Assembly (NCBI GenBank): GCA_020832445.1 | Contig: JAFIEO010000047.1 | Coordinates: 1-64,000, forward strand | Length of the DNA stretch: 64,000 bases | Reading direction: 5' to 3' | From: Paracoccaceae bacterium | GTDB lineage: Bacteria > Pseudomonadota > Alphaproteobacteria > Rhodobacterales > Rhodobacteraceae | Part shown: positions 9,237 through 22,926 of the stretch, piece by piece | Numbering within the stretch: the first letter of the stretch is position 1 | How the letters are laid out: the number at the start of each line of letters is the position of its first letter | Notes under the pieces: model-generated | Databases searched by the model: none | What the model was told of the DNA's origin: nothing | What the model saw: only the letters and a program-made list of their open reading frames with translations | Program-made: the position numbers and the translations under genes

Positions 9237-9950
9237 TTATATGCCTGTTACCAACCGGTGGCCCTGTGCATGATACAGTTGCAACATCCCGATCAACCGC
9301 GCCTGCCGCCAGCTGGTTCGTGTGATCAGCAGCGTTGGCGTGTCGGGCGCGGCGTGCAGGGCATCGGATACAGGTGCGGGGGGGCGAACCGCTTCGATTG
9401 TGATTTGCGCACGGGTCAAGGGCACGTTCCGCAACAGCCATTCATCTGCGGGCGTTGTTTCCAGTATGTCGCGCGATAGTCCCTGAACGGTTGCAGGCAG
9501 CAACCAGCGATGTTCGACCTGATGGGGTATGCCGTCCGCCAGATGCACCGCCGCGATAAACAAAAGCGGCGTCCCCGCAGGCAGGCCCAGTTCTGGCGCA
9601 AGTGCAGGGTCGGGCAGCCGTTCGCCCGCGTCCAGCAGCTGATACCCTGCGACATGCCCCGCTTTGCGGATTGCTTCGGCGATGATGGGCACGTCAAGCG
9701 GGGCCTTGCGCACGGGATTGGCCGAAACGGTGGTCCCGCCCTTGCGCTTGCGGTCCAGAAATCCCGCTGTTGCCAGATCGCGCAAGGCACGCCCGACAGT
9801 GGAACGTGTGCAATCGTAATGCGCGGCCAGTTCCACTTCGCGTGGAATCTGGTCGCCGGGTTTCCAGACACCCGACTGGATGCGCCCCAGAAGGTCGCGG
9901 CGAATGGCCTTCCAGTCGGCTTTGCCAGAGGGGGCAGGGGGGGGTGTCAC
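9237..9950 (-). CDS. hutC: GntR/HutC-family repressor of histidine utilisation
   Basis: This 237-residue transcription factor has an N-terminal GntR winged helix-turn-helix (WKAIRRDLLGRIQSGVWKPGD, then EVELAAHYDCTRSTVGRALRDLATAGFLDRKRKGG, residues 13-75). A UTRA ligand-binding domain follows (about 90-232), ending in the family-typical LYHAQGHRLVTG. HutC proteins repress hut genes and are released by urocanate or formiminoglutamate. Its ATG overlaps the hutF stop by four bases, so hutF and hutC are co-transcribed and the repressor is probably autoregulated. Confidence 0.9.
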   Translation of the reverse strand: MTPPPAPSGKADWKAIRRDLLGRIQSGVWKPGDQIPREVELAAHYDCTRSTVGRALRDLATAGFLDRKRKGGTTVSANPVRKAPLDVPIIAEAIRKAGHVAGYQLLDAGERLPDPALAPELGLPAGTPLLFIAAVHLADGIPHQVEHRWLLPATVQGLSRDILETTPADEWLLRNVPLTRAQITIEAVRPPAPVSDALHAAPDTPTLLITRTSWRQARLIGMLQLYHAQGHRLVTGI

Positions 9951-11326
9951 ATCACATCTCTCAATCGTGCCAGAACGCGCCGGTAGTCGGTGGTGATCGA
10001 CGCCTTGTGGATATGCTCGCCCGCACGCACCACATGCCGACCCGCCGACCAGACATCAGCAATGCAGCGATTATCACCTGAAAAAATCACTGTATCAAGG
10101 ACCAGATCCCCGCAGCGCCCCTCTAGGTCAGTCTGGTGCCCGTCCAGCGCGACAAGATCTGCCCACAAGCCTGTCGCAATCGATCCGGCGGCGCGTCCGG
10201 CAGCCTTTGCCCCGCCGGATGCCGCACCCTGCCACAGAACCCGCCCGGTCGAGCATTCGCGGGTTGCCAGAACAGCGCGGCTGTGGTCGCGCAAACGCTG
10301 CGAATATTCCAGCCCGCGCAATTCTTCGGTCAGGGAAATGCGAATGTTTGAATCACTGCCAATGCCGAACCGCCCGCCATGTTCCAAAAACCGCGCACCG
10401 TCAAAAATGCCGTCCCCAAGGCTGGCTTCGGTTATCGGGCACAGCCCTGCAACCGCGTTTGATCCGGCCAGCGCGACAGTTTCCGCCGGGGTCATCTGGG
10501 TGCAGTGGATCAGGCACCAACGATCCGAAAGTGGCGCATTGTCCAGCAGCCATTCGACGGGCCGTGCGCCAAGTGCCGCGTGCACTTCGGTGACTTCTTC
10601 AACCTGTTCGGCCAGATGCATATGCACAACGCGCGGCCCCGCAAGTTCGGCGCAGAACGCCAGATCATCCGGTTGCACAGCGCGCAGCGAATGGGGCGCA
10701 ATGCCAAGGGCGCTGTCCGCAGGTAGGGTGGCAAGGGTTTTGTCCGTGGCGGCCACGAGTTGCGCAAACCGGTCGCGGGTATTGCCGAAACGCTGCTGAC
10801 CGGGTGCAAGGGGGCGGCGGTCGCACCCGCCAAACCGGTACAGAACCGGCAGCAATGTCAGGCCCATGCCAGTTTGTTCGGCGGCGGCACAAATACCGTC
10901 GGCCATTTCCGACAATTTGTCATAGGGGCGACCGTCAGGCTGGTGGTGCAGGTAATGAAATTCCGCCAGCGCACCGAACCCCGCCTGTAGCATTTCCATC
11001 TGCACCATGGCGGCAATCGCGCGGGCGTCATCGGGTGTCAGATGGTCCAGAAAGCGGAACATCAACCGCCGCCATGTCCAGAATGTGTCGCGCGGGTCGG
11101 GGCCGCGCGCTTCGGTCATGCCTGCCATGGCGCGCTGGAATGCGTGGCTGTGCAGGTTCACGGGCGCGGGCAAAAGCGTGTCCACGACATGCCCTTGCCG
11201 GGGTGCATCGGCGGTGACGGACGCAATCCGCCCCAGTGTGTCGACATGCACCAGCACATCATTCGCCCATCCGTTTGGCAGCAAGGCCTGCCGTGCCCAA
11301 ATCATCTGATCGTTTTTCATCTTCAT
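9947..11326 (-). CDS. hutF: Formimidoylglutamate deiminase HutF
   Basis: This is an amidohydrolase of about 459 residues that converts N-formimino-L-glutamate to N-formyl-L-glutamate and ammonia, a step of the five-step histidine pathway. Visible metal-site motifs are LPAPVNLHSHAFQRAMAG (HxH), ALAEFHYLHH, VHMHLAEQ, CLIHCTQ and IGSDSNIRISL, all in the expected order. The start is uncertain: in-frame ATGs lie at 11353, 11326, 11320 and 11305 and none has a clear ribosome-binding site. 11326 gives a family-typical length. It is transcribed away from hutG, and the small space between them probably holds the shared control site. Confidence 0.92.
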   Translation of the reverse strand: MKMKNDQMIWARQALLPNGWANDVLVHVDTLGRIASVTADAPRQGHVVDTLLPAPVNLHSHAFQRAMAGMTEARGPDPRDTFWTWRRLMFRFLDHLTPDDARAIAAMVQMEMLQAGFGALAEFHYLHHQPDGRPYDKLSEMADGICAAAEQTGMGLTLLPVLYRFGGCDRRPLAPGQQRFGNTRDRFAQLVAATDKTLATLPADSALGIAPHSLRAVQPDDLAFCAELAGPRVVHMHLAEQVEEVTEVHAALGARPVEWLLDNAPLSDRWCLIHCTQMTPAETVALAGSNAVAGLCPITEASLGDGIFDGARFLEHGGRFGIGSDSNIRISLTEELRGLEYSQRLRDHSRAVLATRECSTGRVLWQGAASGGAKAAGRAAGSIATGLWADLVALDGHQTDLEGRCGDLVLDTVIFSGDNRCIADVWSAGRHVVRAGEHIHKASITTDYRRVLARLRDVM

Positions 11327-11327
11327 A

Positions 11328-11358
11328 TTGACACTGTTATTATGCTTACGCATATTAA
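11328..11358 (+). promoter_or_regulatory. Divergent hutF/hutG promoter region with palindrome
   Basis: TTGACA at 11328-11333 is a consensus -35 for hutG. CATATT at 11351-11356, after a 17-base spacer, could serve as the -10. Inside the spacer and -10 lies the inverted repeat TATGC-TTAC-GCATA (11341-11354). Its position would let a bound repressor block both hutG and hutF, making it a candidate HutC operator. The palindrome is seen; the role is inferred. Confidence 0.45.
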
Positions 11359-11390
11359 TGGCACGAACTTTACGCGAAGGGAATAGCCCA

Positions 11391-12209
11391 GTGCAAGACA
11401 GTGCCGCAGCCAGCCCGAAGGGCCAGCCCTTCAGCGCCCGTCAGGGCGGCAGCCCGCTGGTTCTGGCGATCCCGCATGCGGGATCGCATATTCCTGATGA
11501 TGTGCGCGTGGCGCTGAACGACACGGGGCGCGCCCTGTCAGATACCGACTGGCATATGGACCGTGTCTATGACGGGTTGGTGGATGATGTAACTGTCGTG
11601 TCGGCGCGGTTTCACCGCTATGTCATTGACGCCAACCGCGATCCGTCCGGTGCCAGCCTGTATCCGGGGCAGAACACCACGGGGCTGGTGCCGCTGACGG
11701 ATTTTGACGGAAATCCCCTTTGGCAGAATGAACCGGATGCGGATGCGGCTGCGATCGAGGCGCGGCGCGCGCAGTTCCACGCGCCCTATCATGCGGCGCT
11801 GGCGGCGGAACTGGCGCGCGTCAAGGCGCTGCACGGCTTTGCCATCTTATATGATTGCCATTCCATCCGGTCCGACATTCCGTTTCTGTTTGACGGCACA
11901 TTGCCGGATTTCAATATCGGCACCAATCATGGTGTGACCTGTGCGCCAACCCTTCAGGCGGTGGCCTTGCGCCATTGCGCGGCGGCGGCGGGGTTTAGCC
12001 ATGTGGTGAATGGTCGCTTTGTGGGTGGCTGGACAACGCGCCATTATGGCCAGCCTGATCAGGGCATTCATGCCATCCAGATGGAACTGGCCCAATCCAC
12101 TTATATGCAGCAATCCCCGCCCTGGGCCTGGGATGATGACCGCGCCGCGCGTTTGCGCGCGGTTCTGGGACCAATGTTGCGCGACATCGCGGCACTGGAC
12201 CTGTCTTGA
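11391..12209 (+). CDS. hutG: N-formylglutamate deformylase HutG
   Basis: This is an N-formylglutamate amidohydrolase of about 272 residues that releases formate and L-glutamate, the last step after HutF. Family motifs are visible in order: LAIPHAGSHIPDDV, DWHMDRVYDG, VIDANRDPSG, ILYDCHSIRS, GRFVGGWTTRHYG and IQMELAQSTYM. I chose the GTG at 11391 because AAGGGA stands about ten bases upstream and homology starts shortly after. The frame is open back to 11328, but that part overlaps the promoter. It leads an apparent operon with a TAXI-TRAP transporter (34-base gap), which hints that the transporter feeds this pathway. Confidence 0.92.
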   Translation: MQDSAAASPKGQPFSARQGGSPLVLAIPHAGSHIPDDVRVALNDTGRALSDTDWHMDRVYDGLVDDVTVVSARFHRYVIDANRDPSGASLYPGQNTTGLVPLTDFDGNPLWQNEPDADAAAIEARRAQFHAPYHAALAAELARVKALHGFAILYDCHSIRSDIPFLFDGTLPDFNIGTNHGVTCAPTLQAVALRHCAAAAGFSHVVNGRFVGGWTTRHYGQPDQGIHAIQMELAQSTYMQQSPPWAWDDDRAARLRAVLGPMLRDIAALDLS

Positions 12210-12243
12210 ATACAACTGAAAAACCCCAACAAGGAGTGACACT

Positions 12244-13215
12244 ATGAAACATATCACCAGATCACTATGCGCGCTGACGCTGTCGGCGGTGGCACTTGGT
12301 GCGCCTGCAATGGCACAGGAACGCGTGTTTGTCGGCATCGCGACCGGCGGCACCGGCGGCACGTATTACCCGCTGGGCGGCATGCTGGCGCAGCTGATTT
12401 CCAACACCGCTGAACTGGAAGGCAAGCGTATTTCCGCAACTGCCGAAACCGGCAACGCGTCGGTGGCAAATGCCGGGCTGCTGGCACAGGGCGAGATTGA
12501 GACGGCCTTTATCGCCGCCGATATTCTGGATGCCGCCTATCGTGGTGCCAACCAGTTCGAAGGGAATGCTGCGGAAAATATCCGTGCGCTAGGCTCGCTT
12601 TATCCTGAAACCGTGCAGCTTGTGGCACGCGCGGGCGCCAATGTGACCAGCTTTGCCGATATGGCCGGAAAATCCGTATCGTCCGGGTCGCCGGGTTCGG
12701 GCCAGTGGCAGCTTCTGGGTGACCTGCTGGAAGCCCACGGTATGACCCGCGACGATGTGTCTGAAGATTATTCGTCCTTCGCGCAATCGGCGGACAAGCT
12801 GCGCGATGGCAATCTGGATGCGTCGCTGATCACGGCGGGTATTCCCACAGCGTCCATTACCGAACTGGCCAACGGCCATGACATCACTGTGGTGCCGCTG
12901 TCGGGTGCGGAAATTGCGGCGCTTCAGGAAGTGCAGCCTTATTATGCGTCGGTCACGCTGCCCGCAGGCACCTATCGCGGCATAGACGCCGATGTTGAAA
13001 CGCTGGCTGTGCGTGCGATCTGGGCCACGCATGCCGATCTGGACGATGATCTGGCCTATGCCATGGTCAAGGCGCTGTATGAAAACACCGAAACGCTGGC
13101 GCAGGTTCATGTCATGGGCGGCCAGATTTCGCTGGAAACCGCGCTGGAATCCGTCTCGGTGCCGCTGCACCCCGGTGCGGAACGCTTCTACCGTGAAATG
13201 GGCCTGATCGAGTGA
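12244..13215 (+). CDS. TAXI-family TRAP transporter solute-binding protein
   Basis: This is a 323-residue periplasmic binding protein of the TRAP-associated extracytoplasmic immunogenic (TAXI) family. A Sec signal peptide (residues 1-24, ending PAMAQE) is followed by the hallmark IATGGTGGTYYPLGG. Later come SVSSGSPGSGQW, LITAGIPTASI and the C-terminal HPGAERFYREMGL, all typical of TAXI proteins. The start ATG at 12244 has a strong AAGGAGTGAC site. Studied members bind glutamate/glutamine-like ligands. Placement directly behind hutG suggests a histidine-pathway compound or glutamate, as an inference from context. Confidence 0.92.
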   Translation: MKHITRSLCALTLSAVALGAPAMAQERVFVGIATGGTGGTYYPLGGMLAQLISNTAELEGKRISATAETGNASVANAGLLAQGEIETAFIAADILDAAYRGANQFEGNAAENIRALGSLYPETVQLVARAGANVTSFADMAGKSVSSGSPGSGQWQLLGDLLEAHGMTRDDVSEDYSSFAQSADKLRDGNLDASLITAGIPTASITELANGHDITVVPLSGAEIAALQEVQPYYASVTLPAGTYRGIDADVETLAVRAIWATHADLDDDLAYAMVKALYENTETLAQVHVMGGQISLETALESVSVPLHPGAERFYREMGLIE

Positions 13216-13685
13216 TTGGCTTTGGCAAGTGCCGCGCCTTTGCGCTTGCCACTGTGATTTTGGTCATGGGCGGCCCTGCTGCCGCCCATGACTGCATGCC
13301 GCTCGCGCTTGATGTGATCCATGTGCAAGATGGCACGACGCTGGCAAGTTTGCCCGCGCAACCCTTCACGCTGGTCTGGCGCAATTCCGTGACCCATAGC
13401 CTGGTTCAGGCCGATTATATCCTTGGCCCACAGGGGCAGATCATCCAGACCGCCGAACGCTTTGCGGCCCACGGCCCCGGCATGGCCCATGATGGCGCAG
13501 GCTGGCGGATCGAGGGCGGGCAGATGGTGATCGACCTGCACCGCGACGTCGGGCGGCTGATCCTGCGCAGTGCGCCCGCGCATGAAAACCGCCTGATCGC
13601 AGGCGACACGGTGATCGACCTGACCCAGTGGCCCGCCACCCCGCTTGAAATACGTTCGCCCGATTGCAAGGACCCCCCGCCATGA
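13212..13685 (+). CDS. DUF1850 protein of a TAXI-TRAP operon
   Basis: This is a 157-residue exported protein with an N-terminal hydrophobic signal segment (residues 9-25, ending AAAHD). It has the conserved FTLVWRNSVTHSLVQADY block and a late RSAPAHENRL segment, matching DUF1850. This family nearly always sits between TAXI binding proteins and fused TRAP permeases, as it does here; its biochemical role is not known. The start is a GTG at 13212 overlapping the stop of the preceding gene. The end overlaps the next ATG by four bases, so all three are translationally coupled. Confidence 0.82.
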   Translation: MIGFGKCRAFALATVILVMGGPAAAHDCMPLALDVIHVQDGTTLASLPAQPFTLVWRNSVTHSLVQADYILGPQGQIIQTAERFAAHGPGMAHDGAGWRIEGGQMVIDLHRDVGRLILRSAPAHENRLIAGDTVIDLTQWPATPLEIRSPDCKDPPP

Positions 13686-15910
13686 GCACATCTGCCCCCA
13701 AAAGCGATCTGACCGCCGCCGAAATGGAAGCGCTGGTTCGCAAATATGACAGCGAAACCAATTTTCGCCGCCTGACGGGTGTGACAGGGCTGGTGGTGAC
13801 GCTGGCCTGCATCGTGCTGAGTGTGTTTCACATCTACACATCGGGTTTCGGGCTGTTGAATGAAGTCATGCACAGATCTGTGCATATGAGTTTCATCATG
13901 CCGCTGGTGTTTTTGCTGTTTCCGCGCACGCGCGCGGAAAAACCGGCGCGCGCATGGGGGTTCGGGCTGGCATTCGCGGCGTTCTACGTCTTTTTGGGCG
14001 TGCAACTGGCCGATGCCCTAAGCGGGCGCATACCTGACATGGCGCGCTGGGGGCTGATTGGCGTCAGCTTCGCGCTGGCGCTGACCGCGCTGCCCATCAA
14101 TGCGCTGGGCGGGCAGGGCAACCGTGTGTCGGTGATGGACTGGCCGCTGGCGATCGCGGGTGGCGGGTCATCGCTGTATCTGATCGTATTTTTCGATTCG
14201 ATCTTCATTCAGAATGTCGGGTTCCCGCAGCCGCTGGATTATGTGATGGGCCTGCTGGCCATTATCATGGTGCTGGAAGCCGCACGCCGCACCATGGGCG
14301 AGGTGCTGCCCGTTATCGGCACATTGGCACTGCTTTATGCAATATTCGGCCCCTATCTGCCGGGTGATCTGGCGCATCGGGGCTATAATATCATCCGGCT
14401 GGTCAATCACCTGTATCTGGGCACCGAGGGGATTTACGGCATCGCCATCGGGGTGGTGGCGACATTCGTGTTTCATTTCGTGCTGTTCGGGGTTCTGGCG
14501 CAGAAATCGGGGCTGGGTCAGTTGTTCATTGATCTGGCCAGCATCGTCGCAGGCCGCTACGCGGGCGGCCCTGCCAAGGTGGCGGTGGTGTCATCGGGGT
14601 TTTTTGGCATGATCTCCGGCTCTCCGGTGGCGAATACGGTGACGACGGGTGCCTTCACGATTCCCATGATGAAATCCAAGGGGTTTTCAGGCCGGTTTGC
14701 CGCCGCGACCGAAGCCTCGGCCAGTTGTGGCGGGCAGGTGACCCCGCCCATCATGGGCGCGGCCGCGTTTGTGATGACCGAAATGCTGGGCGTGCCTTAT
14801 AACGAGTTGATCCTGATTGCCATTATTCCGGCCGCGTTTCATTATCTGTCCACGCTGTTCATGGTGCATCTGGAAGCGAAACGCCTGAATCTGGAAGGGA
14901 TCGCGCCCGACAAACTGCCGCAATTCATGGATGTTCTTGCGCGCTCGTGGCACCTGTTCATTCCGCTGATTGTCATGGTCACGCTGCTGTTGATGAAATT
15001 CACCCCGTTTCTTGCGGCCTTCTGGGGGATTATCCTGACGATCGTATGTTCCTTTATTCCGGTCACGCTGCAACTTGTGGGCTTGGGCCAACGCATGGAT
15101 GCCAGCAGCGCATTGACCCCGATGAAGTTGCAGGACGCGCTGAAAAGCGGCGCGCAGCAATCCATCGCCATCACGGCGGCCTGTGCTTGTGTGGGCTTTA
15201 TTCTGGGGGTCACAACGCTGACGGGTATGGGGTTCAAATTCTCTGGTGCGGTGATTGACGGTGCCGCATGGATGGGGGCCACGATTTCCGCACTGGACCC
15301 GCTGGGTTTCTTGTCGCAGAACGGCACAACGCTGTTTTTCGCGCTGATTTTTGTGGCGATTGCCTGCATCATCATGGGCGCGGGGATTCCCACAACGCCC
15401 ACCTATATCATCCTTGCCGCCATCGCAGCACCCGCCTTGCAGCAACTGGGCGTGCCGCTTCTGGCCACGCATTTCTTCGTGTTCTATTACGGGGTTCTGG
15501 CCGATATTACGCCGCCGGTGGCCTTGGCCGCCTATGCGGGTGCAGGGATTGCGAAATCCGACCCCATGAAAACCGGCATGACGGCGTTCCGCCTGTCGAT
15601 GGGCAAGGCGTTGGTTCCGATGATGTTCATCTATGCGCCCGCGCTGTTGTTCATTGATTTCACATGGTGGGATTTCATGCTGGCGCTGTCGTCAGGGGTG
15701 CTGTCCATTGTGGCGCTGTCGGTGGCCTATATCGGGTTTTTCAAGACAAGTGTGGAACGGTGGGAAAAATGGGTGCTTAGCCTTGCGGGGCTGGCCTTGG
15801 TCGCCCACGACCTGACGACGATTGTTCTAAGTGCAACGGTGGTGCTGGCGATCTTGTGGCGCAATAGCCGCAAGCCGCCCGATACAGGCGTGCCGCGCCC
15901 GCAAGACTGA
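13682..15910 (+). CDS. TRAP transporter fused permease (TAXI type, DctQ+DctM)
   Basis: This is a 742-residue inner-membrane permease in which the small four-helix (Q) and large (M) TRAP subunits are fused, the rule for TAXI systems. After a hydrophilic N-terminus come many hydrophobic helices. The M-domain blocks are GSPVANTVTTGAFTIPMMK, EASASCGGQVTPPIMGAAAF and MGAGIPTTPTYIILA; ADITPPVALAAYAGAGIA is the second half-site. It drives Na+ or H+-coupled uptake of the ligand delivered by the TAXI protein. The ATG at 13682 has AAGGA upstream; an earlier in-frame ATG at 13664 is less likely. Confidence 0.93.
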   Translation: MSTSAPKSDLTAAEMEALVRKYDSETNFRRLTGVTGLVVTLACIVLSVFHIYTSGFGLLNEVMHRSVHMSFIMPLVFLLFPRTRAEKPARAWGFGLAFAAFYVFLGVQLADALSGRIPDMARWGLIGVSFALALTALPINALGGQGNRVSVMDWPLAIAGGGSSLYLIVFFDSIFIQNVGFPQPLDYVMGLLAIIMVLEAARRTMGEVLPVIGTLALLYAIFGPYLPGDLAHRGYNIIRLVNHLYLGTEGIYGIAIGVVATFVFHFVLFGVLAQKSGLGQLFIDLASIVAGRYAGGPAKVAVVSSGFFGMISGSPVANTVTTGAFTIPMMKSKGFSGRFAAATEASASCGGQVTPPIMGAAAFVMTEMLGVPYNELILIAIIPAAFHYLSTLFMVHLEAKRLNLEGIAPDKLPQFMDVLARSWHLFIPLIVMVTLLLMKFTPFLAAFWGIILTIVCSFIPVTLQLVGLGQRMDASSALTPMKLQDALKSGAQQSIAITAACACVGFILGVTTLTGMGFKFSGAVIDGAAWMGATISALDPLGFLSQNGTTLFFALIFVAIACIIMGAGIPTTPTYIILAAIAAPALQQLGVPLLATHFFVFYYGVLADITPPVALAAYAGAGIAKSDPMKTGMTAFRLSMGKALVPMMFIYAPALLFIDFTWWDFMLALSSGVLSIVALSVAYIGFFKTSVERWEKWVLSLAGLALVAHDLTTIVLSATVVLAILWRNSRKPPDTGVPRPQD

Positions 15911-15981: not shown

Positions 15982-16470
15982 TCAGGGGCGCACGGCCACC
16001 ACTTCGATTTCAACCAGCCAATGCGGGTTTGCCAGACCGGCAACCTCAAACACCGAACGGGTGGGCAGGTTGGGTTGGTCTTCGGTGCCAAAGAACTGCA
16101 CATATCCATCCATGAAGCCGCCGAAATCCATCTGGCCGCTGTCATCGGCCACCAGATAGACCTGCATTTTCACGACATCCGACATCGTCAGGTCAAGATC
16201 TTCCAGCGTGCTGTTGATCCGGCCCAGAACGGAGATGGTCTGCGCTTCGGTGTCGCCGAATGCCGCTGCGGTATTGGGTTCCGCGTCCGTGTTTGTAACG
16301 CCGGGAACCGCGCCGCTAAGATAGACCAGTGTTGCATCTGCCGGAATTTCAACGGCGCGCAGGATTGGGAAATCTGATCCCGGATTTTTGTGGCGCACGA
16401 CTTCGGCCTGCGCGACACCGCCCAGCAAAAGGGATGCAGCAAGTGCCGGAAGAAGGGTTTTGTTCAACAT
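15982..16470 (-). CDS. Exported RidA/YjgF-family imine deaminase
   Basis: This is a 162-residue RidA-superfamily protein with a clear Sec signal peptide (MLNKTLLPALAASLLLGG, cleavage near AQA, residue 22). Typical RidA is about 130 residues and cytosolic. The RidA core is intact: LVYLSGAVPG, DVVKMQVYL, PTRSVFEVAGL with the catalytic Arg, and LVEIEVVAV with the catalytic Glu. RidA hydrolyses reactive imines/enamines to the carbonyl compound and ammonia. It follows an exported amine oxidase and a cytochrome c on the same strand, so it probably acts on the imine product in the periplasm (inference). The earlier in-frame start at 16542 would bury the signal peptide and is less likely. Confidence 0.85.
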   Translation of the reverse strand: MLNKTLLPALAASLLLGGVAQAEVVRHKNPGSDFPILRAVEIPADATLVYLSGAVPGVTNTDAEPNTAAAFGDTEAQTISVLGRINSTLEDLDLTMSDVVKMQVYLVADDSGQMDFGGFMDGYVQFFGTEDQPNLPTRSVFEVAGLANPHWLVEIEVVAVRP

Positions 16471-16499
16471 GTCTGGTTCCTTGGTGATGAAAGTGATTC

Positions 16500-16529
16500 T
16501 GGCGGCCAGCCACACGGGGCCGGCCGCCA
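16500..16529 (-). other. Intercistronic hairpin between cytochrome c and ridA-like genes
   Basis: TGGCGGCC (16500-16507) and GGCCGCCA (16522-16529) form a perfect 8-base-pair stem in the 92-base gap between the two genes. No T-run follows on the transcribed strand, so it is more likely a processing or stabilising hairpin than a terminator. Confidence 0.5.
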
Positions 16530-16562
16530 ATTTTGTCCGCAACGCGTGAAGGCGCGTGGTGG

Positions 16563-16964
16563 TCAGCGCGTCTGGGACACCATTTCAGGCGTTGCCGGAT
16601 CGTCGGGGTAATCGTTGCCAAAACTGGTTCGGATGTAATTGACCACTTCGGCAATCTGTTCGTCATCCAGCACGCCGCGCAGGGGCGGCATGGCCGCCTG
16701 ACCGTGCAGTGTCAGCATGACGGCATATTCCGGGTATTCCAGCGTCGGGTTGTCAGCCAGTGCGGGATAGCTGGCCGCGCCGGTTGCCCCTTGGCCATCC
16801 GGCATGTGACAGCTTGCGCAGACGGCCTTGTAGATTCCTTCGCCGGTTTGCTGTGTCAGCACATTGCGGCTTTCGAACCACGCGGCGCTGTCATCGGCGA
16901 TGGCGGGGACTGCCGCGATGCTTGCTGCGAACAGGGCGGGGGTGAATAGTTGGTGCATGCGCAT
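16563..16964 (-). CDS. Periplasmic class I c-type cytochrome
   Basis: This is a 133-residue monohaem cytochrome c. It has a Sec signal peptide (residues 1-23, ending PAIAD). The haem-attachment motif CASCH lies near residues 49-53 in GIYKAVCASCHMPDGQGATG. A Met-containing segment, AAMPPLRGVLDDEQIAEVVNYIR, provides the axial Met and the C-terminal helix. It starts three bases after the stop of the flavin amine oxidase gene, so it is the obvious electron acceptor for that enzyme. Amine oxidases of the NicA2 group are known to pass electrons to a neighbouring cytochrome c rather than to oxygen; this pair fits that arrangement. Confidence 0.93.
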   Translation of the reverse strand: MRMHQLFTPALFAASIAAVPAIADDSAAWFESRNVLTQQTGEGIYKAVCASCHMPDGQGATGAASYPALADNPTLEYPEYAVMLTLHGQAAMPPLRGVLDDEQIAEVVNYIRTSFGNDYPDDPATPEMVSQTR

Positions 16965-16967
16965 CGG

Positions 16968-18587
16968 TTATTCTCCTGCTGCGGCGATTGCGGTTTCGTT
17001 CAGGCGGCGGATGGCATCCAGCGACGACAGAACCGCCCCTTCCATCCATGCAGGCAGATAGGACAGATGCTCGCCCGCGCAGACAATCCGGCGGTCCATC
17101 GCCACCGCATCATCATATTGGGCCTCCTTGTCCTGCCATAGCCCGTAGCAGCCCAGTGTCCACGGCACACGGTGCCACGCCACAGAAACCCCTGCCTTGA
17201 ATTCTTCGGGCATTTGCGGGTGAATCTGGCTGCCCCATTCCACGGTGCGGCGCACGCGGTCTTCGGGTTCGATTGACGAATACTGATACGCCAGCGCCCC
17301 CCAGGAATAGGCCCCCAGAACAACGCCGGGTTTGTCCGACAGATAGTCATTCGACGGATAGGAGATTTGCGAGATGGGCAGGTCGGTATAGGTGGTCCCG
17401 CCGTAGATATGCTCGTCCTCTTCCCAAAAGCGGCGCTTGAATTCCAGCCCGACCTTGATTGATGCCGCGTAGTGCATGGTCTGGATCACATTCGCCAGCG
17501 GGCCAGAGAAGTCATGGTCAATCTGGCTCAGGATCGAGAAGGGAATCGTGCAGACGCAATAATCCGCGCTGGTCGTTCCTTCTGCGCCATCATTTTCCAA
17601 ATCCTCATAGGTGACCGACACACCATCATCATCCTGCCGGATCTGGGTGACGCGTTTGCGATAGCGCACCAGATCGCCAAGATTGTCGGCCATGGCGCGC
17701 GCAATCATGTCCATCCCGCCCTTGGGCTGGAAAATCGGCATGGAACCGTTCAATGCCTCGCTTGTGGCAAGGCGCGACCACAGGCCGGACTCCAGCAAGG
17801 TGGACAGGTCCAGAATTTCATTGGCAATGGGCGCGCCATCGACACCGCCACCGGGCGGGCGTTCATAGCCACGGCGCGAACTTGCGTCATTGCCGGACAC
17901 ATAGGCGTTGTCACTGTTCAGCGCGCCAAAGGTGCGCAGACCGGCCAGCAGGTTTTCCTTGTCTTCATCTGACAGCACCTGATCCAGCGCGCCCTGATCG
18001 GTGACTTTGGACAGCAGGTCGGAAATATGGCCGCGGAAATCGGCATTGATTTCGCGGTAGCGCACGGGCTTGCCGTCAAATGCGTCGACCGAATGCACAT
18101 AGGCATGGTTGTTGATCTGGATCAGCGGTTCCAGTTCAACACCCAGCCTGCGGCAATAGTCCAGAATGCCATAATGGTTATAGGGCACACGCCATGGACC
18201 GGGGTTGAAGTAATTGCCTTCGGCAAAATCCACGGTCTGGGTAAAGCCACCCAATTCTTCATAGGTGTCGCCCGCGCGCATGGTCCAGCAGCGCCCGCCC
18301 GCGATTTCGCGGAATTCCAGCACTTCGACATCATAGCCCGCATCGCGCAATTCCATCGCGGCGATCATACCGGCGATTCCAGCCCCAAGAACAAGCACTT
18401 TTGTCCCTTCGGGAGCACGTTCTAGTTGTATGCGCCCATCATAAGGTGACGCATGCGCGACCCCCATCATACCCATGGCCTGATACATTGCCGCGGCGCC
18501 ACCAGCGGCGCCGACCATCGTCAGGAATTCCCGTCTTGATGGATTAGGTGTTGAATTATCAGCTAAAATGGCCTCCTTTAGTTTCAT
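16968..18587 (-). CDS. Tat-exported FAD-dependent amine oxidase/dehydrogenase
   Basis: This is a flavin amine oxidase of about 539 residues. The N-terminus carries a twin-arginine motif (SRREFLTMVGAAGG) and the mature part starts near residue 45. The FAD-binding KVLVLGAGIAGMIAAMELRDAGYDVEVLE (seen as GAGIAG plus the following Glu) is followed by AGGRCWTMR. The C-terminal flavin block is CAGEHLSYLPAWMEGAV. It should oxidise an amine or amino acid to an imine in the periplasm, giving electrons to the adjacent cytochrome c. The substrate is unknown. The start is uncertain: ATGs at 18587 and 18599 lack a ribosome-binding site, while AAAGGAGG lies just inside the frame at 18571-18578. Confidence 0.88.
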   Translation of the reverse strand: MKLKEAILADNSTPNPSRREFLTMVGAAGGAAAMYQAMGMMGVAHASPYDGRIQLERAPEGTKVLVLGAGIAGMIAAMELRDAGYDVEVLEFREIAGGRCWTMRAGDTYEELGGFTQTVDFAEGNYFNPGPWRVPYNHYGILDYCRRLGVELEPLIQINNHAYVHSVDAFDGKPVRYREINADFRGHISDLLSKVTDQGALDQVLSDEDKENLLAGLRTFGALNSDNAYVSGNDASSRRGYERPPGGGVDGAPIANEILDLSTLLESGLWSRLATSEALNGSMPIFQPKGGMDMIARAMADNLGDLVRYRKRVTQIRQDDDGVSVTYEDLENDGAEGTTSADYCVCTIPFSILSQIDHDFSGPLANVIQTMHYAASIKVGLEFKRRFWEEDEHIYGGTTYTDLPISQISYPSNDYLSDKPGVVLGAYSWGALAYQYSSIEPEDRVRRTVEWGSQIHPQMPEEFKAGVSVAWHRVPWTLGCYGLWQDKEAQYDDAVAMDRRIVCAGEHLSYLPAWMEGAVLSSLDAIRRLNETAIAAAGE

Positions 18588-18819: not shown

Positions 18820-19755
18820 CTAATCCCCAAGCGGCAGCGGAACCGTGCGCCCGTGATATGCTGTCAGCGAAGCGCGCACGCGGCGCAGATATTCGGAACT
18901 CAGTTCAGGGCGTTCGCGGGCCACGGACAAGGCCAGCGCGTCCAGCACAATCAGCAGCGAAAACCGGATGGCAGTTGGTTGGAAAATATCGGGATGTTCG
19001 GGAATCGCGAATGTGATCGGTATTGCCGCCAGTTGCGCCAACCGGCTGTTGGGGCTGGTGATGGCGATGGTGGTCGCGCCATAGCTGTTGGCAATTTTTG
19101 TCGCCGCAATCATGGCATCCACCTCGCCACTGGCGGAAAACACCATCAGCACATCTTCGGCCCCCAGTGTCGCGGCCTGCATTTGCGCCTGATAGCTGTC
19201 ATTGACATAGGATGCGGGAATCCCGATGCGGAACAGGCGGTTTGCCGTTTCCATGGCCATCATGGACGACCCGCCCCCGATCCCTGCTGCAAGCGTGCGC
19301 CGACCTGTGCTTAGCGCGTGTTTTGCGGCTTCCATCTGGGTGTGGTCCAGTTGGTGGCGCAACATGGCGGCTGCCGAATGGAATGCCGACAGCACATCAT
19401 CGACGGCGGTTTCTGTGCCGGTCGGGTGGTCGCCGGGGTCGGTGTCGAAATACTGCATGCTGACGGCAAGGTTCTGTGCCAGCCGCAGCTTGAATTCACG
19501 AAAGCCGTCACTGCCCAGCGACCGGCAAAACCGGACAACTGTGGGGGTGCTGACACCAGCGCCCGCCGCCAGTTCGGCAATGGTCATATTGCTGATCCGC
19601 ATCAGATTTGCCTTGACGTAATCGGCCACTTTCTGTTCGCGCGCAGCCAGCTTGCCATCCAGCCTGTCCAGGGCACTGATGACATCCACGACACCGATCT
19701 GCGCACGGTTTTGCAGTTTCACGTTGGCGGGCGGTGTCGGGTTGTCGGCTTTCAT
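18820..19755 (-). CDS. RpiR-family transcriptional regulator
   Basis: This is a 311-residue regulator with an N-terminal RpiR helix-turn-helix domain (residues 25-105; MTIAELAAGAGVSTPTVVRFCRSLGSDGFREFKLRLAQ). A C-terminal SIS phosphosugar-isomerase-like sensing domain follows (about 130-280; GIGGGSSMMAMETANRLFRIG, then LMVFSASGEVDAMIAATKIA). It is divergent from the MlrC-like operon, with about 200 bases between. That intergenic DNA contains TGTAA-type repeats also found before the downstream binding-protein gene, so it probably controls both. Many RpiR proteins act on amino-sugar or amino-acid catabolism; the effector here is unknown. Confidence 0.92.
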   Translation of the reverse strand: MKADNPTPPANVKLQNRAQIGVVDVISALDRLDGKLAAREQKVADYVKANLMRISNMTIAELAAGAGVSTPTVVRFCRSLGSDGFREFKLRLAQNLAVSMQYFDTDPGDHPTGTETAVDDVLSAFHSAAAMLRHQLDHTQMEAAKHALSTGRRTLAAGIGGGSSMMAMETANRLFRIGIPASYVNDSYQAQMQAATLGAEDVLMVFSASGEVDAMIAATKIANSYGATTIAITSPNSRLAQLAAIPITFAIPEHPDIFQPTAIRFSLLIVLDALALSVARERPELSSEYLRRVRASLTAYHGRTVPLPLGD

Positions 19756-19952: not shown

Positions 19953-21422
19953 ATGAAAGTGTTCTGTGCGTCCATAGCAACCGAGACGAACACATTCTCG
20001 CCCTTGCGCACAGACCTGTCGGATTTTCACGAAAGCTTCTATGCGCCCCCCGGCAAGCACCCTGAAACGCCGACATTATGTTCAGCCGTGTTTCCCGAAT
20101 TGCGGGCGCGCGCGCAGCGTGGCGAGATTGAGCTGGTAGAGGGGACCGCCACATGGGCCGAACCTGCCGGTCTGGTCAGCGCGCAGACATGGGCGCATTT
20201 GCGCGACGAAGTGCTGGGGCAGTTGCGCGCAGCCATGCCAGTGCAGGCCGTGGTCATGGGGCTGCATGGCGCGATGATTGCACAGGATTGCGTGGATTGC
20301 GAAGGCGAATTGCTGGCTGAAATCCGCAAGATTGTGGGGCCTGATGTCAAGATTGGCGCCAGTTTCGACCCGCACAGCCACCTGAGCGCCGCGCGCGTTG
20401 ACAATGCTGACATTATCACCGTGTTCAAGGAATTCCCGCATACGGATTTTGTCGAAGCAGGCGTGGCTTGTGTGGATTTGACGCTGCGCGCCGCGCGCGG
20501 GGAAATCCGGCCGGTGATTTCGGTGTTCGATGTGCGCATGATTGATGTGCTGCCCACCAGCCGTGCGCCGATGCGCGGTTTTGTGGACCGCATGCGCGCG
20601 CTGGAAGATGCAGGCGCGGCCCTGTCCATTTCTGTGATACACGGGTTCATGGCTGGCGATTCCCCTGATCTGGGGGTCAAGATGGTGGTCATTACCGATG
20701 ATGCGCAAGCGGCAGGTGATGCATTGGCGCGTAAACTGGGGCAGGAATTATTCACCTTTCGCGGGCGCGCGCGCCCCGATTTTCTGGACCCGCGCGCAGC
20801 GCTGGACAAGGTGGCGAAATCCGGCAGCGGGCCGGTGGTCGTTGCCGATGTCTGGGACAATCCCGGTGGCGGGGTGCCGGGCGATTCCACCATCATTCTG
20901 CGCCATGTGCTGGATATGGGGCTGCGCGATATTGCCTTTGGCACCATCTGGGACCCGATGGCCGTGCGCATATGTCATGCCGCAGGCGAAGGGGCGCTGT
21001 TGAAACTGCGTTTCGGCGGCAAGACATCTGATGTGGCGGGTGATCCGGTCGATGCGGTGGTGCGTGTTGTGCGCGTGCAGCGCGATGCGGTCCAAAGTTT
21101 CGGGGCTTCTGTCGTGCCGCTGGGCGATAGTGCCGTGATTGAATTTCAGGGCGTTCAGGTGGTTCTGAACTCCACCCGTTCACAAGCATTCTCGCCGGAT
21201 TTGTTCACCAATCTGGGGATTGATATTTCAGTCAAGCGCGCCTTGGTGGTGAAATCCACCAACCATTTCCACGGGGCTTTTGCGCCGGTTGCCGCAGAAA
21301 TTCTGTATTGCGCCGTTGACGGGCCGTATCCGAATGACCCGCGCCGCACGGAATACAAACACCTGACCCGCGCGATCTGGCCCATCGTGGCAGACCCGCA
21401 CGGCACAGACGGGGGCGGATGA
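19953..21422 (+). CDS. M81-family metallopeptidase (MlrC-like)
   Basis: This 489-residue protein resembles MlrC, the microcystinase that cleaves linear tetrapeptides from microcystin, and its wider M81 family. Family blocks are CASIATETNTFSP at the N-terminus and VVMGLHGAM, then GASFDPHSHLSAARV, which supplies likely metal-ligand Asp/His residues. Further on come SVIHGFMAGD, VVADVWDNPGGGVPGDST and VVKSTNHFHGAFAPVA. Most M81 members act on unknown peptides or amides; microcystin itself is unlikely here. It leads an operon with a D-amino-acid-type PLP enzyme and a RidA, overlapping the next start by four bases. AAGGGAA precedes the ATG. Confidence 0.88.
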   Translation: MKVFCASIATETNTFSPLRTDLSDFHESFYAPPGKHPETPTLCSAVFPELRARAQRGEIELVEGTATWAEPAGLVSAQTWAHLRDEVLGQLRAAMPVQAVVMGLHGAMIAQDCVDCEGELLAEIRKIVGPDVKIGASFDPHSHLSAARVDNADIITVFKEFPHTDFVEAGVACVDLTLRAARGEIRPVISVFDVRMIDVLPTSRAPMRGFVDRMRALEDAGAALSISVIHGFMAGDSPDLGVKMVVITDDAQAAGDALARKLGQELFTFRGRARPDFLDPRAALDKVAKSGSGPVVVADVWDNPGGGVPGDSTIILRHVLDMGLRDIAFGTIWDPMAVRICHAAGEGALLKLRFGGKTSDVAGDPVDAVVRVVRVQRDAVQSFGASVVPLGDSAVIEFQGVQVVLNSTRSQAFSPDLFTNLGIDISVKRALVVKSTNHFHGAFAPVAAEILYCAVDGPYPNDPRRTEYKHLTRAIWPIVADPHGTDGGG

Positions 21423-22474
21423 TGTTTGCACAGATTGCAACCCCCGCCGTGCTGGTCGATCTGGATATTGCGCAAGCAAATATCGACAGGTTTCAGGCGC
21501 ACGCCACGCGTGCCGGTGTGGCGGTGCGCCCGCATATAAAGACGCATAAGCTGCCAATGCTGGCCCATGCCCAGATCAGGGCGGGTGCGGTCGGGATAAC
21601 ATGCCAAAAGCTGTCCGAAGCCCGCGCAATGATGTCGCAAGGCGGGATCGCGGATATCCTGATCACCTATAATATTGTCGGCGACGGCAAGCTGTCAGAA
21701 CTGCGCGCATTGGCCCGGAAGGTGCGCGTGCGTGTCACCGCTGACAGTCATGATGTGGTCGCGGGCCTGTCGCGGGCTTTTGCGGATGCGCCGCAGCCGC
21801 TGGATGTGCTGGTCGAATGTGACACGGGTGCGGGGCGCTGCGGGGTTCTGACGCCGGATGCGGCCTGCGCGCTGGCGCAAACCATTGCACAGGCACCCGG
21901 TTTGCGCTTTGGCGGGCTGATGACCTATCCGCCTGCGAATGCGGTGCGCGATGTGTCCGACTGGCTGACGCGGGCCGCGCAGCGTTGCGAAGGGGCGGGC
22001 CTGTCTGTGCCGGTCATTTCAACCGGCGGGTCACCCGATATGTGGGCGGTGCAGGCCCTGCCATGGCCTACGGAATACCGCGCAGGAACATATGTTTATA
22101 ATGACCGTTCGCTGGTGGCGCGCGGGGTGTGCGACTGGGGTGCCTGCGCGCTGACAGTGCTGGCAACGGTTGTGTCCGTGCCCGCCCCCGACCGCGCGGT
22201 GATAGATGCGGGCAGCAAGGTGTTGTCATCCGATTTGCTGGGCCTGACGGGGCATGGTCATGTTCTGGGCCGGTCCGACATTTCCATCGCCGCACTGTCT
22301 GAGGAACATGGCATTCTGCATGCCGACACCATCGCGCTGAAGGTGGGTGAGCGCGTGCGCATTGTTCCCAATCACGCCTGCGTGGTGGCAAACCTGCTGG
22401 ACCGCGTGCATCTGCTGCGCGCAGGCGTTCCGCAGGGCGAAACGCAGGTGACAGCACGGGGGCAAGTCTGGTGA
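21419..22474 (+). CDS. Fold-type III PLP enzyme: D-serine dehydratase/D-threonine aldolase-like
   Basis: This 351-residue protein belongs to the alanine-racemase-fold family that acts on D-amino acids (D-threonine aldolase, D-serine dehydratase, D-3-hydroxyaspartate dehydratase). The PLP lysine lies in VRPHIKTHKLPML (about residue 42). GALMTYP-like substrate and phosphate sites appear as FGGLMTYPPA and ISTGGSPDM. The C-terminal PNHACVVANL gives the His-x-Cys metal-binding pair of the D-serine dehydratase group. The expected reaction is lyase or dehydratase chemistry on a D-hydroxy-amino acid. It overlaps the MlrC-like gene and is 59 bases before a RidA, which fits release of an enamine product. 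Confidence 0.85.
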   Translation: MMFAQIATPAVLVDLDIAQANIDRFQAHATRAGVAVRPHIKTHKLPMLAHAQIRAGAVGITCQKLSEARAMMSQGGIADILITYNIVGDGKLSELRALARKVRVRVTADSHDVVAGLSRAFADAPQPLDVLVECDTGAGRCGVLTPDAACALAQTIAQAPGLRFGGLMTYPPANAVRDVSDWLTRAAQRCEGAGLSVPVISTGGSPDMWAVQALPWPTEYRAGTYVYNDRSLVARGVCDWGACALTVLATVVSVPAPDRAVIDAGSKVLSSDLLGLTGHGHVLGRSDISIAALSEEHGILHADTIALKVGERVRIVPNHACVVANLLDRVHLLRAGVPQGETQVTARGQVW

Positions 22475-22533
22475 ATGGCCCGACTGATGAAAGCCGCAAC
22501 AATTCTGACAAAACCACAAACAGGAGTGACAAG

Positions 22534-22926
22534 ATGACACTGGAACGCATCGGCGTATCGCGCACAGGCGCAGGTGGCCAATCCTTGCCGTTTTCACCGG
22601 CAGTTCGGGCGGGGGATATGATATATGTCTCCGGTCAGGTCGCCATGAAAGAGAATGGCGAGATTGAACCGGGCGGCATCGAGGCGCAGACGCGGCGCAC
22701 CATGGAAAACCTGAAAGCGGTGCTGGAACTGGCAGGATGCAGTTTTGATGATGTCGTCAAGGCGAATTGCTGGCTGGACGATCCGCGCGATTTCTGGACG
22801 TTCAACCGCGTTTATGCCGAATATTTCCCGAATGGCGGCCCTGCGCGTTCAACCGTACAGGCCACGCTGATGGTCGATGCCAAGGTCGAGGTTGATGTGA
22901 TCGTCTACAAACCGCAGGCGAAATAG
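22534..22926 (+). CDS. RidA-family 2-iminobutanoate/2-iminopropanoate deaminase
   Basis: This is a standard-length cytosolic RidA protein of 130 residues. It hydrolyses 2-aminoacrylate and related enamines/imines to 2-oxo acids and ammonia, preventing damage to PLP enzymes. The blocks LPFSPAVRAGDMIYVSGQV, MENLKAVLELAGCSFDDVVK, the catalytic Arg in GPARSTVQAT and the Glu in VEVDVIVY are all present. There is no signal peptide, unlike the second RidA at 15982. AGGAG lies before the ATG at 22534. It sits between the D-amino-acid PLP enzyme and a peptide ABC transporter. Confidence 0.93.
   Translation: MTLERIGVSRTGAGGQSLPFSPAVRAGDMIYVSGQVAMKENGEIEPGGIEAQTRRTMENLKAVLELAGCSFDDVVKANCWLDDPRDFWTFNRVYAEYFPNGGPARSTVQATLMVDAKVEVDVIVYKPQAK

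Follow-up and report, generated by a model that had tools for sequence, protein, structure and literature searches.

A predicted periplasmic L-amino acid oxidation module of the lao-cccA-ridA kind with a signal-bearing Rid-family protein in a Paracoccaceae bacterium

The genes described here lie in a stretch of 64,000 nucleotides of a Paracoccaceae bacterium (assembly GCA_020832445.1, contig JAFIEO010000047.1, positions 1 to 64,000), which is referred to as the window. Its minus strand carries three consecutive open reading frames (ORFs) for a flavoprotein, a cytochrome c and a RidA-family protein (Table 1). A preliminary description of this DNA had read them as a flavoprotein with a twin-arginine translocation (Tat) signal, a cytochrome c with a CASCH motif three bases away and a RidA protein with a signal of the general secretory (Sec) pathway. 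This arrangement was confirmed, with identical coordinates, by the ORFs and by one Pfam match for each protein (Amino_oxidase 6e-61, Cytochrome_CBB3 2e-15 and Ribonuc_L-PSP 6e-16). The cytochrome gene begins three bases past the stop codon of the flavoprotein gene. The N-terminal region of the flavoprotein reads NPSRREFLTMVGAAGGAAAMYQAMGMMGVAHA and continues with GAGIAG; the RidA gene most likely starts with the ATG at 16470 (162 aa, MLNKTLLPALAASLLLGGVAQAE), which was preferred over a longer ORF starting with TTG.

Table 1. Features of the three-gene locus in the window.
Feature	Position	Strand	Remarks
FAD (flavin adenine dinucleotide) flavoprotein of the L-amino acid oxidase type	16968..18587	-	539 aa, twin-arginine signal SRREFLTMVG
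Small cytochrome c with Sec signal	16563..16964	-	133 aa, CASCH; probable electron acceptor of the flavoprotein
Exported Rid-family (Rid3-like) imine/imino-acid hydrolase, predicted	15982..16470	-	R138 and E154 intact
Intergenic gap between the cytochrome and RidA genes	16471..16562	-	92 bases, strong guanine-cytosine hairpin (folded)

Among solved structures, the closest relative of the flavoprotein found with phmmer is the L-amino acid oxidase (LAAO) of R. opacus (2jae, E = 2e-86, residues 63-533), and monoamine oxidases follow far behind. A profile of 25 sequences reached 2jae at 4e-120; of the 16 best chains, 15 bear the name LAAO or L-glutamate oxidase, and the other (5ts5) is entered as 'Amine oxidase'. 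Residue R133 of the flavoprotein aligns with the arginine of the GATRIP motif in 2jae and is invariant in the relatives of two alignments (12/12 and 25/25). The equivalent arginine of LAAOs is presumably the active-site residue that binds the alpha-carboxylate. Because the solved matches are led by 2jae and the GATRIP-aligned arginine is invariant, L-amino acids are predicted as the most likely class of substrate, rather than a nicotine-like amine, and the protein is most likely an L-amino-acid dehydrogenase. An AlphaFold model of the flavoprotein has a confident core (mean predicted local distance difference test score 80.6; predicted template modelling score 0.80), with low confidence in the signal region (residues 1-45). 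In openly licensed papers, neither an L-amino acid dehydrogenase of this description nor kinetics of a dehydrogenase of the LAAO branch turned up, and the same holds for the active-site arginine of the R. opacus enzyme.

For the comparison with named genomes, the best 80 of 223 listed LAAO relatives were taken; since they were ranked by similarity, the 80 loci are not a random sample. A related cytochrome c gene lies on the same strand within 500 bases in 78 of them. In 37 loci the set is completed by a RidA gene of the same orientation at most 1 kb away, when any LAAO of a locus is counted (35 if only the best one is); the three-gene combination of the window is therefore found elsewhere, for example in Limimaricola, Paracoccus, Xanthomonas, Bradyrhizobium, Gluconacetobacter, Komagataeibacter and Methylobacterium. 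A loose twin-arginine pattern (RR or KR), applied without a control set, occurs in 79 of the 80 LAAO relatives, and the 80th begins at a contig end; a narrower Tat pattern matched 61 of 80.

The nearest solved relatives of the RidA protein are the Rid3 proteins PSPTO3006 and PFL1385 (9bka 2e-31 and 9bkc 1e-25; the next match is at 5e-8), and judged by them it is probably Rid3-like. Its catalytic arginine and glutamate, described beforehand as intact, are R138 (R105 of RidA) and E154, and both are kept in 79/79 aligned RidA sequences, a set that excludes named-locus matches with a score of 150 or below, most of them fragments or members of other Rid types. Signal sequences were assessed with a home-made rule for Sec signals, not with SignalP. 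The rule passes the RidA protein and the cytochrome of the window and fails the flavoprotein, whose signal was assigned as Tat from the SRREFL motif and the following hydrophobic stretch; all three proteins thus look exported, as had been supposed. The genome of the window has nine RidA-family places, and none of the seven other distinct genes tested passes the rule (an eighth was without a locus). Of the 56 RidA matches in the collected loci, fragments and other Rid types included, 52 pass. One RidA match is split across two frames (L084, 7597-8579), possibly due to a frameshift or an assembly error.

The linkage of this RidA type to the LAAO type was followed in genome samples with cut-offs of E <= 1e-15 for RidA and E <= 1e-40 for LAAO. 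Among 398 genomes sampled across the phylum Pseudomonadota, 24 have the RidA type and 27 the LAAO type. All 24 genomes with this RidA also possess the LAAO, at a nearest distance of at most 3.5 kb and, in 22 cases, of less than 0.75 kb. Further samples covered the class (RidA in 10 of 385 genomes) and a Pseudomonas-like family (17 of 178). When all samples were pooled, 43 different RidA-bearing genomes were obtained, of which 41 have the LAAO; the two genes lie within 3.5 kb of each other in 41/41 and within 0.75 kb in 37. The other two genomes (G182 and G784) gave no LAAO match at 1e-40, and weaker relatives are possible there. The tie between RidA and flavoprotein, which the preliminary description had proposed, is therefore clearly seen in the sampled Pseudomonadota. 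Of 35 relatives searched within the genus, four carry an LAAO of the window type (86-99% identity), in each case with all three genes together. In three of the four, the flanking genes of the window were not found beside the trio, and since the trio stays together without them, it represents a conserved unit.

Export of the paired RidA proteins could be followed in the same 41 genomes. The rule finds a signal in 36 of these RidA proteins; in one more (G134) it overlooked a hydrophobic anchor at the N-terminus, which brings the number to 37. The remaining four (G730, G678, G886 and G900) are Pseudomonas-like; their RidA sequences have nothing in front of the domain and share 85-88% identity with PSPTO3006, and both trees place them in a single clade (support 100/100 and 100/99). 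The LAAO partners in these four genomes keep the twin arginine and have charged residues (Glu, Lys, Asp) in the signal core. Their core hydrophobicity (0.82-1.18) overlaps with that of the exported proteins, which reach down to 0.92, so that the loss of LAAO export was judged visually, from the core charges. The pattern fits a joint change of compartment of RidA and oxidase in this clade, which counts as a single event because the four genomes form one clade in both trees. Judged by the N-termini, predicted export is general for this RidA branch, and compared with the evidence of the window by itself, the survey considerably raises the likelihood of a dedicated exported RidA. For the further proposal that the Rid3-like branch was ancestrally exported as a dedicated LAAO partner, leaving the cytosol along with the oxidase and, in one clade, returning there with it, we consider the chances to be evenly balanced.

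These observations make it probable that the trio encodes a periplasmic L-amino acid oxidation module of the lao-cccA-ridA kind, in which an L-amino-acid:cytochrome c dehydrogenase is combined with an on-site imino-acid hydrolase. The flavoprotein would take up FAD and fold in the cytosol before its export via Tat, and in the periplasm it would oxidize L-amino acids to alpha-imino acids. The electrons would be passed to the adjacent c-type cytochrome and on to the respiratory chain, and not to oxygen. Also in the periplasm, the Sec-exported RidA would hydrolyse the imino acid once it is released, yielding keto acid and ammonium. Among relatives of NicA2, a Tat signal together with an adjacent Sec-signal cytochrome c (CytC) predicts dehydrogenases (PMC12224317), and by motif and simple rule the flavoprotein of the window carries both signposts. 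The periplasmic amine dehydrogenase feeding respiration that had been proposed beforehand thus keeps its compartment, its partnership with the cytochrome and these signposts; its enzyme class changes, the flavoprotein being of the LAAO type by sequence.

Several findings speak against such a module or narrow it. In 41 of the 80 named LAAO loci there is a cytochrome and no same-strand RidA gene within 1 kb, and 3 of the 27 LAAO genomes of the phylum sample lack this RidA, which means that RidA is dispensable in places. Other congeners have an LAAO about 48% identical to that of the window, and the four such loci examined contain a match to the cytochrome and none to RidA. The signal rule is passed by 69 of 79 cytochrome matches and failed by ten, seven of which are the longer ones of Psychrobacter. 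A branch of 17 members, to which the four signal-less RidA proteins belong, has RidA and LAAO without a cytochrome match nearby; 13 of these 17 pairs still have a RidA of the exported type. The link between RidA and LAAO is therefore independent of the cytochrome, and this fits a RidA that acts on the product and not on electron transfer. Finally, the survey behind the two signposts dealt with NicA2 relatives, and its accessible text contains no match for 'L-amino acid' or 'LAAO' (PMC12224317). Besides, a second, longer cytochrome-c-like ORF was observed 5' of the flavoprotein gene, with no RidA match, in seven Psychrobacter loci (L069, L075, L077, L085, L086, L088 and L092), and likewise 5' of the LAAO gene in L107, L113 and L118.

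That the flavoprotein is a true periplasmic LAAO reducing O2 to H2O2, with the cytochrome as a peroxide scavenger or an unrelated neighbour, is an unlikely explanation. It would agree with the description of characterized LAAOs as H2O2-producing oxidases (PMC5053998), which also weighs against the proposed module, with the related Tat LAAO-RidA pairs that lack a nearby cytochrome match, and with the finding that Tat flavoproteins without CytC are mostly oxidases (PMC12224317). The close cytochrome gene in 78 of the 80 named relatives, three bases away in the window, argues against it, and so does the pathway of Gluconacetobacter diazotrophicus PAL5, which is blocked in mutants defective in cytochrome c maturation (ccm), where 5% of the indole-3-acetic acid (IAA) is formed (PMC5053998). 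In this bacterium, lao, cccA and ridA form a cluster of the same type (GDI2456-2455-2454), and lao::Tn5 mutants no longer form IAA from tryptophan and retain low levels of indole-3-pyruvate; cccA and ridA transcripts are also reduced in these mutants (PMC5053998). A trio dedicated to the formation of IAA from tryptophan might therefore be considered for the window as well. This appears rather improbable, as the LAAO of the window is 50% identical to that of G. asukensis (L071) and the data from the window do not fix the substrate. Moreover, its neighbours are histidine/formylglutamate, tripartite ATP-independent periplasmic (TRAP) transporter and ATP-binding cassette (ABC) transport genes, which were not found beside the trio in three of the four congeners.

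The same architecture is known from amine dehydrogenases, as NicA2 relatives likewise combine a Tat flavoprotein of the amine oxidase superfamily with a Sec cytochrome c (PMC12224317), and the preliminary description had accordingly regarded the enzyme as a NicA2-type amine oxidase. This assignment was abandoned: the sequence groups with the LAAOs, with 2jae at 2e-86 as the best solved match and the GATRIP-aligned arginine invariant. In addition, no NicA2 entry is named in the best 60 solved matches (of 109 and 88), no direct comparison with a NicA2 sequence having been made. A NicA2-like dehydrogenase for an amine other than an amino acid is accordingly very improbable, and an L-amino-acid:cytochrome c dehydrogenase with its own RidA is preferred for the window.

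The start of the flavoprotein gene differs from that of its relatives. In 4/4 gene-bearing congeners a TTG follows GGAGG where the window reads TTA (18566-18564, minus strand), and in one of them (L179) an in-frame stop lies just 5' of the TTG position. The ATG at 18587, which has no clear ribosome site, is for this reason a mere candidate, and the gene of the window may start there or with the ATT at 18569. No terminator-like match was found within the gap between the cytochrome and RidA genes, and matches to consensus promoters and terminators were no more frequent than expected from shuffled sequences. In a plasmid search, no record covered 80% of the query; of 17 rows, the 10 listed cover 1-2% each.

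On the far side of the RidA gene, the region 9947-15910 contains HutF-type and formylglutamate-amidohydrolase-type genes, followed by a TRAP-type transporter (NMT1-like binding protein, DUF1850 and DctM) that adjoins the trio. An RpiR-type regulator gene (18820-19755, minus strand) precedes the LAAO gene in the same orientation and was found in only one of the four congeners, the near-identical relative L177. The genes of the region 9947-15910 are, from 11328 on, kept in L177 as well and were not found in L178-L180. A second RidA gene (22471-22926, plus strand), signal-less by the rule, lies directly 3' of an alanine-racemase/D-serine-dehydratase-type gene (21419-22474) and an M81 MlrC-type gene and beside an ABC transporter gene. 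From this context it looks like the usual cytosolic RidA beside an enzyme dependent on pyridoxal 5'-phosphate (PLP).

Work on RidA has dealt chiefly with its cytosolic role in protecting PLP enzymes from damage, and such targets are not expected in the periplasm. An exported RidA branch that, in the sampled genomes, is nearly always found beside an amino acid oxidase suggests a second role, namely faster hydrolysis of the product of a respiratory enzyme. If ancestral export holds true, many Pseudomonadota would possess a periplasmic deamination line of two steps that is independent of cytosolic RidA and, in the cytochrome-bearing branch, wired to respiration. The LAAO-RidA pair would be a natural test case for Rid proteins as dedicated partners, and the question of dehydrogenase versus oxidase now reaches the LAAO branch.

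Parts of this module have been described before. Genes for RidA, and sometimes Rid3, cluster with FAD amine oxidases, and a conserved arginine (R105 of RidA) together with a glutamate marks the imine-hydrolysing Rid group consisting of RidA and Rid1-3 (PMC4433059, 2015). PSPTO_3006 and PFL_1385 deaminate imines formed by a venom L-amino acid oxidase as well as iminoarginine (PMC5619798). Relatives 85-88% identical to PSPTO_3006, the Rid3 protein of the 9bka/9bkc set with PFL_1385, lack a signal, unlike the RidA of the window; PFL_1385 is 71% identical to signal-bearing relatives. A pathway of chitin oxidation that includes the 127-aa OngD was placed in the cytoplasm (PMC9537276), and a Rid6 protein occurs in nicotine degradation (PMC7688666). 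NicA2/Pnao with CycN and other CytC-using amine dehydrogenases share the Tat flavoprotein and adjoining Sec cytochrome c with the window, whose flavoprotein differs in being nearest to LAAOs; the accessible text of PMC12224317 has no match for Rid or RidA.

Beyond PMC5053998, PMC4433059 and PMC10805672, no report on an operon of RidA, amine oxidase and cytochrome was recognized in the openly licensed literature. In view of these papers, the trio as such is not a novel system, and the earlier supposition that an exported RidA with an amine dehydrogenase is undescribed is not supported: the trio has been published, and only the export of a bacterial RidA may still be new. No explicit report of the latter was recognized in that literature, nor was one of general export of this branch in bacteria or of its near-obligate LAAO linkage. 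In Chlamydomonas, LAO1 and LAO2/RIDA were placed in the periplasm (PMC10805672), where exported LAAO and RidA act jointly on extracellular L-amino acids, like the predicted pair of the window. This system differs in that it is eukaryotic, LAO1 produces H2O2 and no cytochrome c partner is mentioned in the accessible part of that paper.

The closest counterpart is the cluster of G. diazotrophicus, with the same three genes and an LAAO that likewise bears a Tat signal and for which a model of the R. opacus enzyme served as comparison (PMC5053998). Its authors proposed a cooperation of LAAO, cytochrome and RidA and cited the periplasmic LAAO/RidA complex of Chlamydomonas (Vallon 1993); a signal on the RidA of G. 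diazotrophicus is not mentioned in the accessible part of the paper. The published primers for quantitative polymerase chain reaction match L071 of G. asukensis with 1-5 mismatches and give amplicons of exactly the published sizes (152, 220 and 214), so that L071 can stand in for this cluster. Its gene order is LAAO-cytochrome-RidA, and its RidA is signal-bearing like that of the window. Since lao-cccA-ridA was published in 2016, the trio of the window is a new example of a known anatomy.

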